Shown here: one piece after another, positions 47,633-58,222 of the stretch | Layout of the letters: each line of letters opens with the position of its first letter | How positions within the stretch are numbered: position 1 is the stretch's first letter | Assembly: GCA_022729235.1 (NCBI GenBank) | Contig: JALDAJ010000001.1 | Coordinates: 762,442-826,441, forward strand | DNA: 64,000 nucleotides | Direction: 5' to 3' | Source of the DNA: Candidatus Nanohalarchaeota archaeon | GTDB taxonomy: Archaea > Nanohalarchaeota > Nanosalinia > Nanosalinales > Nanosalinaceae | Made by a program: the position numbers and the translations under genes | The notes under the pieces: model-generated | Database searches by the model: none | What the model saw: the letters and a program-made list of their open reading frames with translations, nothing else | What the model was told of the DNA's origin: nothing

Positions 47633-48703
47633 CTACTTCATGACTTCCAGTCCCAGGTCGTTGACGTCACCTGATACCTCTGTTTCGGTTTCCTCTTCCA
47701 CGTCTCCGAGGATGTAAGGTGATTCAACCCCGGTTACGATGGATATGACCTGTATTTTACCTTCAAGCTGTTCTTTCACTCTCGCACCCCATATCACCTG
47801 GGCGTGGTCGTCGAGGTTGCCCTGGACTGTCTGACCGACGTCGTTGATCTCGTTGAGCGTCAGATCCTGTCCTCCAGCTACATGGATTAGAGCTCCGTTG
47901 GCGTCCTCAAAGCTGACGTCAAGTAGTGGGTTGGATAATGCTTCGTGGATCGCTTCTTCTCCTTTGTTATTCGTATCTGATTCTCCGTATCCTACTACTG
48001 CTACTCCTCCCTGGTTCATCACTGCTCTTACGTCTGCATAGTCCAGATTGACGAGGGACGGCTTGGAGATAGTTTCTGTAACGCCTTTTATCATCGTAGT
48101 TATGAGTTCATCCGCGACTCCGAACGCCTGGTCAAGAGGCATGTCGCCTGCGATGTCGAGCAGTCGGTCGTTTTCGATTACAATCGCGGTGTCGACATGC
48201 TGTCTCATCCGGTATAAGCCGTCTTCTGCCTTGGACATTCTTGCTCCTTCTATCTCGAAAGGCATTGTAACGGTTCCGATTACGATGCAGTCTTCTTTCT
48301 TTGCGATTTCTGCTAGTACAGGTGCGGCACCAGTACCTGTTCCTCCGCCAAGTCCGCAGGTTACAAAGACCATGTCTGCGTCAGCGAATAATTTTCTTAG
48401 TTCCGCACGGTTCTCTTCCGCGCTTCTCTCACCTTTTTGAGGGTGTCCTCCTGCACCGAGACCCTTTGTCAGGTCACGTCCGATGAGTATCTTTCTATCG
48501 GCGCTGGAAATTTCCAGGTGCTGTTTATCGGTATTGATAGCTACAGTCTCGGCACCGTCAACATTCTTTTTCTGGATGCGCGTTACCTGGTTGTTGCCGG
48601 CTCCGCCGACTCCTACAACCAATATTTTAGCATCTTTAACATCCTCTAGGTTAGAGGTTTTAGCCTGTTCTTGGGATTGCGTGTTGTTGATTATGGATTC
48701 CAT
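47633..48703 (-). CDS. ftsZ: Cell division GTPase FtsZ
   Basis: The 356-residue tubulin-like GTPase forms the division ring. It has [10 protein letters not shown] at the N-terminus, the tubulin signature [38 protein letters not shown] and NDRLLDI with the T7 region [15 protein letters not shown] (catalytic Asp). The C-terminal domain ends in an acidic tail. TTTAAAAAGG about 35-40 nt before the ATG is the likely TATA, and the GCCCAA array lies upstream of that promoter. Confidence 0.96.
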
Positions 48704-48780
48704 CTTGTATCGTCCTGCGCGATAGCTATGCCTAACCTTTTTAAACCGGCATAGGTAATTCTACCTTAGAACAAACGCAA

Positions 48781-48898
48781 TTGCCCAACTTACACGTATT
48801 CAAGCCCAATCGTCGATTCGAAGCCCAATTCGAATCATGTGATCCAACTCGCGCCCAAACGAGTTCGATCCGAGTCGTTTCACGGCCCAACGTGAAAC
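48781..48898. repeat. Array of inverted repeats with conserved GCCCAA centre upstream of ftsZ
   Basis: GCCCAA occurs five times in 108 bp (48783, 48804, 48823, 48853, 48885). Three copies are exact loops of different perfect or near-perfect stems: GATTCGAA/TTCGAATC (8 bp, 48815-48836); AACTCG/CGAGTT extended by GATC/GATC across a C-C mismatch (48841-48870); and GTTTCACG/CGTGAAAC (8 bp, 48877-48898). The copy at 48804 has a weaker stem with a bulge. The stems differ in sequence while the centre is conserved, so selection acts on structure plus loop. They lie upstream of the ftsZ TATA box and 160-280 bp before gatC. Confidence 0.75.
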
Positions 48899-48933
48899 AA
48901 TCTGAGCTTATACTAGTACATTTTCTAGCCCGG

Positions 48934-48942
48934 TTTATAAAT
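48934..48942 (+). promoter_or_regulatory. TATA-like box toward gatC
   Basis: TTTATAAAT follows AGCCCGG and lies about 120 nt before the gatC ATG. It would give a leader of about 90 nt that includes the 18-bp palindrome at 48990. It is the best plus-strand promoter candidate in this intergenic region. Confidence 0.4.
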
Positions 48943-48989
48943 GTTACTTCTGTATCGTGTTCTATCGATGTTCACGAGTTCTGAACACT

Positions 48990-49007
48990 AACTGTTCATG
49001 AACAGTT
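48990..49007. promoter_or_regulatory. Perfect 18-bp palindrome AACTGTTCATGAACAGTT
   Basis: The sequence is identical to its reverse complement. Further GTTCA/TGAAC half-sites flank it (GTTCACGAGTTCTGAAC at 48970-48986 and GTTCATG at 49005-49011). It looks like an operator for a dimeric regulator acting on gatC, ftsZ or both. Confidence 0.55.
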
Positions 49008-49059
49008 CATGCTACTGGTTTTGGAATGATACAAAAAGATTCGCTGTAACTCATGGTAC

Positions 49060-49338
49060 ATGGTCGATCAGGAGGAGGTTCAAGGAGTCGCGGAGAACGC
49101 ACGGCTGAACTTGACTGAAGACGAGGCGGAAGAGTTTACCGAGGACTTCGAGTCGATCCTGGAGATGTTTGAGACCCTGGATCAGGTTGATACTGATGAT
49201 GTGGAGCCGGCGTTCCATCCTGTCGAAGTGGAACCCGAGACCAGGGAGGACAGGAAAGAAGTTGGTCTTTCCCATGACGAGGTCTTCCAGAACACGGATA
49301 ATGTGGAAGACAATAAATTCAAGGGTCCTTCAGTTTAA
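49060..49338 (+). CDS. gatC: Asp/Glu-tRNA amidotransferase subunit C
   Basis: GatC stabilises the GatCAB complex that turns Asp-tRNA-Asn into Asn-tRNA. The 92-residue protein fits the family: VAENARLNLTEDEAEEFTED is the conserved N-terminal helix pair, VEPAFHPVEVEPETRED the extended arm, and the C-terminus includes KGPSV. gatA and gatB follow at 51 and 54 kb but are not adjacent. GGAGGAGG lies just inside the gene; no classical Shine-Dalgarno precedes the ATG. Confidence 0.9.
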   Translation: MVDQEEVQGVAENARLNLTEDEAEEFTEDFESILEMFETLDQVDTDDVEPAFHPVEVEPETREDRKEVGLSHDEVFQNTDNVEDNKFKGPSV

Positions 49339-58010: not shown

Positions 58011-58078
58011 TTAACACGTTGAAACTTCCTGTCTTATCTTTATAAAACCGATATCGATATTAATAGGGAAATGTGTAC

Positions 58079-58222
58079 GAGCCCGCAGGGATTTGAACCC
58101 TGGACCTTTCGGTATCTTCTATCGAAAATCACGGGACCGTGATTTTCTTAGTCCTCGTTCTCCAGGAGGGAGAACTTGAGGAGCCGAAGCCGAATGCTCT
58201 GTCCGGACTGAGCTACGGGCCC
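58079..58222 (-). tRNA. tRNA-Arg (anticodon TCG) with a 70-nt intron
   Basis: On the minus strand the exons are 58222-58184 and 58113-58079. Pairing: acceptor GGGCCCG/CGGGCTC (one G-U), D-stem GCTC/GAGC, anticodon stem TTCGG/CCGAA with loop CTTCGGA (anticodon TCG), variable AGGTC, T-stem CAGGG/CCCTG around TTCAAAT. The intron (58183-58114) sits after position 37, the usual archaeal place, and folds into two strong hairpins: CCTC-aa-GTTCTCC/GGAGAAC-GAGG and GAAAATCACGG/CCGTGATTTTC. CCA is not encoded. Confidence 0.92.

Follow-up and report, generated by a model that had tools for sequence, protein, structure and literature searches.

Organization of the ftsZ upstream region

The window analysed here, a stretch of 64,000 nucleotides, is part of a closed 1.03 Mb nanohaloarchaeal genome whose relatives include SG9, Nanosalina J07AB43 and Nanosalinarum J07AB56. 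The ftsZ gene (47633..48703, minus strand; TIGR00065, E 1.4e-120) reads leftward from 48703, while gatC (49060..49338, plus strand; TIGR00135) reads rightward from 49060. The following features lie between them:

48738..48745, plus strand: PL, a TATA-like box TTTTTAAA with CCTAAC before it and a footprint towards the array
48755..48771, plus strand: conserved start region ending TTCTACCTTAGAA, with the predicted 5' end of a plus-strand RNA at AGAA (48768)
48783-48788 and 48804-48809, plus strand: a pair of GCCCAA copies that lack a good stem, at a place where several relatives have one
48815..48836, plus strand: hairpin B, GATTCGAA GCCCAA TTCGAATC (27.5 bits, model R1)
48841..48870, plus strand: hairpin C, GATCcAACTCG CGCCCAAA CGAGTTcGATC (25.6 bits at 48845-48866)
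48877..48898, plus strand: hairpin D, GTTTCACG GCCCAA CGTGAAAC (28.5 bits)
48917..48928, minus strand: AGAAAATGTAC, a conserved segment lying between the array and PR (relatives have TAGAAAATGTTAG)
48934..48941, minus strand: PR, a TATA-like box TTTATAAA facing the array, with a predicted minus-strand start near 48911

In agreement with the original prediction, GCCCAA occurs five times within 108 bp (48783-48890; starts at 48783, 48804, 48823, 48853, and 48885), and our recount places three of the copies at the exact centres of inverted repeats with stems of 6-8 bp. When both strands of the window are considered, stems of at least 6 bp surround 3 of 12 GCCCAA copies vs. 31 of about 64,000 hexamer positions, and the arithmetic from these window counts gives a chance of about 1e-8 for three such copies in twelve. 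Matches of the hairpin covariance model in the window are exactly hairpins B, C, and D, and the folding z-scores of the array are -3.5 for the plus strand and -3.0 for the minus strand. At the place of the stemless GCCCAA pair, stems are present in relatives such as L004 (attcaag-CCCAA-cttgaat) as well as L007 and L013 (with TTTGCCCAAA). Inspection of a 67-aa open reading frame that overlaps the array (48781-48984) revealed no frame conserved across relatives. The array had been placed between the ftsZ promoter and gatC; the two genes do flank it, but what encloses it directly is a pair of promoter-like boxes that both face inward.

Conservation in nanohaloarchaea and covariation of the stems

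In the phylum set of 28 nanohaloarchaeal genomes, the array lies directly upstream of ftsZ in all 27 that have an intact ftsZ start, and the remaining genome appears to correspond to contig L052, where the array is likewise present. The loop sequence is GCCCAA in most of them, TCCCA or TCCCAC in L015-L017 and L019-L021, and CGCCAA in L029. A search of the 28 whole genomes with the single-hairpin covariance model gave 33 matches with E<=0.021, every one of them upstream of ftsZ, and two marginal matches (E 0.06) away from it. The suspected constant association with ftsZ is thereby borne out, and a dispersed repeat of the REP, CRISPR-like or degraded type can be ruled out; GCCCAA arrays scattered near unrelated genes, which had been named as a result that would speak against the element, are not what the confident matches show. 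The sole constant neighbour of the array is ftsZ, while the presence of gatC is a matter of local synteny, its place being taken elsewhere by other genes.

All eight stem positions have changed on both sides among 32 ungapped hairpins. The covariation score of this set, which was preselected for at least five Watson-Crick pairs and comes from related genomes, so that the counts are non-independent, is 1.009, as compared with 0.227 after shuffling and at most 0.154 with slid partners. Because of this preselection, the unbiased figure is that of unselected GCCCAA-type sites, at which 4.01 of 8 flanking pairs are complementary vs. 2.23 with right arms reshuffled (maximum 2.64 in 1000 reshuffles). 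Individual compensatory swaps can be followed in hairpin D (GTTCGTG/CACGAAC in L004, GTTCATG/CATGAAC in L005) and in hairpin C (CTCA/TGAG in L016, CTCG/CGAG in L017), and the array hairpins thus display the compensatory stem changes by which structured RNAs are recognized. The original prediction had proposed selection on a structured element and had pointed to missing covariation in close relatives as a possible refutation; the stems do covary, and there is strong support for selection on an element whose loop is conserved and whose stems compensate.

Promoter-like boxes at both ends of the array

The conservation of each box is markedly one-sided. Column identity at PL is 0.80 at positions -8..-1, 0.96 in the box, and 0.88 at +18..+34 on the array side; past AGAA it falls to 0.52, and on the ftsZ side it is at the baseline of 0.50. 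In 20 of 27 nanohaloarchaeal genomes, the distance between the first T of the box and the AGAA motif is exactly 30 nt. When read in reverse (TTTAAAAA), PL is also well placed as a putative promoter of ftsZ and, therefore, is probably bidirectional. The PL box lies inside an inverted repeat, ATGCC..GGCAT (48728-48757), the arms of which differ by species and are still complementary (CTATACC..GGTATAG, GTGCCG..CGGCAC).

At PR, read leftward, the AA at -4 and -3 is invariant, the identity in the box is 0.99 and that at +8..+25 about 0.7, while the outer side is at baseline (0.47). The conserved stretch at 48917..48928 is T-rich on the plus strand and could end a plus-strand RNA. The genes to the right of PR vary among genomes, and in L026, L093-L095, L097, L098, and L111 they are convergent on the array. 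Since these neighbours change or run towards the array, PR is not their promoter; a role as the gatC promoter is ruled out by the position of its conserved side, towards the array, and by its persistence beside convergent genes. Its retention where the right-hand gene is convergent and is not gatC indicates that the unit belongs with ftsZ. Two predicted promoters thus face each other across the hairpins, as in an RNAI/RNAII-type pair.

The SRP RNA promoters of family f9 read CGAAAACCCTTTAAAG in the forward direction, which is the polarity of PL rightward and of PR leftward. Nanohaloarchaeal SRP and gene promoters are less informative on polarity, and BREs alone make that polarity hard to assign. 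The SRP promoters of family f1 (L061-L087) read CTTTTAACMTTTCC, an unusual TATA context unlike that of the other families of the phylum.

The element in a second DPANN phylum

Outside nanohaloarchaea, the boxes and a hairpin array precede ftsZ in genome G031 and in many other members of its phylum, which is the larger of the two. A recognizable PL, here CGAAAT-n-CTTTTTAA, is present in 57 of 90 loci, and strict GC-loop hairpins average 0.98 per unit vs. 0.047 in shuffles, counts in this phylum being lower bounds because the automatic choice of start codons misplaced ftsZ in part of the loci. AGAA lies 27-37 nt from the PL box in 29 of 34 loci, and PR has a GAAA-type BRE in most loci of the phylum. 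The loops of this phylum are GCCCA, GTCCAGA, CCCCC, CGCCAA, and GCCCGA, as well as GGGGG in L122 and L159, and some lineages have short direct repeats and no clear hairpins (ACGAGA, GTTCCA, AAACCC, GTGCCC). Overall, the loop motif is GCCCAA, TCCCA, GTCCA, CCCCC, CGCCAA, or GGGGG, depending on the lineage, and the constant feature is a pair of putative promoter boxes around several copies of one lineage-specific motif.

Two deviations within this phylum deserve mention. In L140, L141, and L150 (family f24), the array consists of ACGAGA-type direct repeats unrelated to GCCC, and in L122, L159, and L134 the G/C orientation of the motif is flipped, so that the strand with CCC in other loci has GGGGG or GGGGC instead.

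Nature and possible function of the element

Whether the stems act in RNA or in DNA can be approached through their mismatches. Among 1409 stem pairs, 57 are G.T and 40 are A.C, as compared with 478 and 61, respectively, in the consensus helices of SRP RNA of the same genomes, which were counted by a different rule; controls counted by the same rule (SRP, tRNA) are too small for comparison with the 57 vs. 40 of the array. If both strands were made into RNA as a sense/antisense pair, each G.U in one transcript would be an A.C in its complement, and the two mismatches should be tolerated equally little; the same is to be expected of a DNA structure. The linkers between hairpins are A-rich on the plus strand (A exceeds T in 22 nanohaloarchaeal segments and T exceeds A in 2), which is expected if unpaired RNA is made from that strand; the flank to the right of PR, taken as a control, shows the reverse and is T-rich. 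The plus-strand folding z averages -4.75, whereas raw folding energy is lower on the minus strand in most genomes, and the z advantage of the C-rich plus strand is partly one of composition, which confounds folding z as a test of strand. The presence of the motif outside hairpins in some lineages fits a motif that needs to be single-stranded. Taken together, the balance is towards RNA.

We propose an ftsZ-linked non-coding RNA locus, which would encode a complementary pair of hairpin RNAs that make contact through their loops and set ftsZ expression or division, and we rate the chances of this proposal as even. PL would drive a plus-strand RNA of about 130-190 nt with its 5' end at AGAA, which would fold into 3-5 hairpins whose loops all display one short C-rich motif. 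PR would drive a minus-strand RNA over the same interval, and the two would form a complementary pair with matching loops (GCCCAA vs. UUGGGC). The repeated loops would offer many identical contacts to one partner, be it the complementary RNA, another RNA or a protein, and this contact would set the level of ftsZ expression or the activity of division. Transcription of the array, a function of the plus-strand RNA, the existence of its minus-strand counterpart and ftsZ as the target are what we infer here from sequence, and it is the location and conservation of the element that suggest its role in division control. That the element, which occurs in at least two phyla of DPANN archaea, makes an RNA that regulates division is probable. 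The widest form of the proposal is rather unlikely to hold in its entirety: an ancient, DPANN-wide control of division in which convergent promoters would make complementary multi-hairpin RNAs that meet via identical loops and set the FtsZ level. The loop would be free to drift in such a system, as each strand encodes its own complement.

Of the other explanations, an array acting at the DNA level is somewhat unlikely. In this case, the array would be an operator between promoters, with a protein bound to its repeated centre, either in the duplex or in hairpins of extruded or single-stranded DNA; the stems would matter as DNA structure or persist via template-switch repair of palindromes. The near-equality and rarity of both mismatch types, as if the two strands counted alike, would follow, and in lineages that have direct repeats but lack hairpins the array looks like one of operators or iterons. 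The turnover of the motif across lineages and its uniformity inside an array also speak for this explanation. However, ordinary operators keep their arms and not an asymmetric centre, whereas here up to four arms per genome surround one centre, the spacing is irregular, and A-rich linkers on one strand are left unexplained. Those linkers, along with the PL footprint, the AGAA spacing, and the better plus-strand z-scores, would suit equally a plus-strand RNA acting alone, i.e., a trans-acting C-loop RNA, either a sponge or a multi-site antisense RNA, to which PR is unrelated. Such an explanation is quite improbable, as it does not account for the conservation of PR, its array-facing side and its survival of neighbour-gene exchange; moreover, the complement of the loop was not found by inspection as a conserved feature of the ftsZ leader.

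A different use of PR, as a distal promoter of ftsZ whose transcript would begin with a long regulatory leader of UUGGGC-loop hairpins, agrees with its orientation towards ftsZ, with the constant link to this gene and with the lower raw folding energy of the minus strand in most genomes. We consider it very improbable, because ftsZ is already well served by PL and a short leader, G.T exceeds A.C when the stems are read on the plus strand and not when they are read on the minus strand, and the minus-strand linkers are U-rich. A replication-linked site had also been envisaged, and a repeat array flanked on either side by an AT-rich box would be compatible with an origin, iterons or a centromere located incidentally beside ftsZ. 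In seven closed genomes of the family, however, the best orc1/cdc6 match is about 33-41% of the genome away, a distance that speaks against a replication origin; some genomes have a weaker second paralogue closer by (about 81 kb in that of the window), but never adjacent, and the skew of the window shows no turn at the array. Replication or segregation is, therefore, hardly credible as the function of the array.

Relation to known regulatory systems

The cis-encoded sense/antisense hairpin RNA pairs of plasmids, RNAI/RNAII of ColE1 and CopA/CopT of R1, resemble the element in their convergent overlapping promoters, several stem-loops on both RNAs, GC-rich loops capable of kissing and near-perfect pairing on both strands. 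Unlike them, the array is chromosomal, archaeal and located beside ftsZ, it has one loop sequence per array, and its RNAs are predicted only. Sponge RNAs of the CsrB/RsmZ type also consist of numerous short hairpins in which the stems vary and the loop motif is shared; the array differs in that its loop motif changes with lineage, a second inward promoter is conserved and its RNA could come from either strand. A constant GGA-type CsrA loop is absent from the arrays, the motifs of which include the ACGAGA and GGGGG types, and to our knowledge a CsrA partner is not to be expected in archaea. MraZ boxes and plasmid iterons, which are regularly spaced direct DNA repeats without covarying arms, share with the array the short G/C-rich motifs repeated upstream of a division gene or in series, and differ from it in that the array has covarying arms and irregular spacing.

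We know of no account of ftsZ control in DPANN archaea. In Euryarchaeota, an ftsZ locus has been described as being under protein control, with CdrS and CdrL acting at the promoter of ftsZ2 (PMC7439475); CdrS was reported in all major archaeal groups except DPANN (PMC7439475), which is where the hairpin array occurs. A search of Rfam 15 gave no match in this region of the window at E<=5, nor any in 18 related loci except one tRNA, so that no family of this database fits the element. No description of the element was found in the literature on DPANN ftsZ regulation, on small RNAs of nanohaloarchaea and N. equitans, or in structured-RNA surveys, and a literature search for an ftsZ-DE motif yielded unrelated papers only. 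A 266-nt nanohaloarchaeal intergenic sRNA, STRG.4577.1 (PMC7002113), is close to SRP RNA in size. With no counterpart in Rfam or in the literature searched, the element is previously undescribed.

As an element of two phyla found only beside ftsZ, it offers a direct entry point to ftsZ control in DPANN archaea. If it acts as RNA, it represents a new archaeal RNA family with an unusually fast turnover of loops; if as DNA, a type of operator whose stems persist only as pairing. The predicted start sites and the hairpin coordinates make both readings testable.

Other features of the window

Immediately to the right of PR, at 48993-49011, there is a palindromic sequence TGTTCATGAACAGTTCATG, and many members of the family have GTTCA-type sites in the same position; the palindrome is likely a regulator site for PR or gatC. 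A tRNA match of 145 nt on the minus strand (58078-58222), missed by ARAGORN, contains a 10-bp inverted repeat (58124-58147) and probably has an intron.
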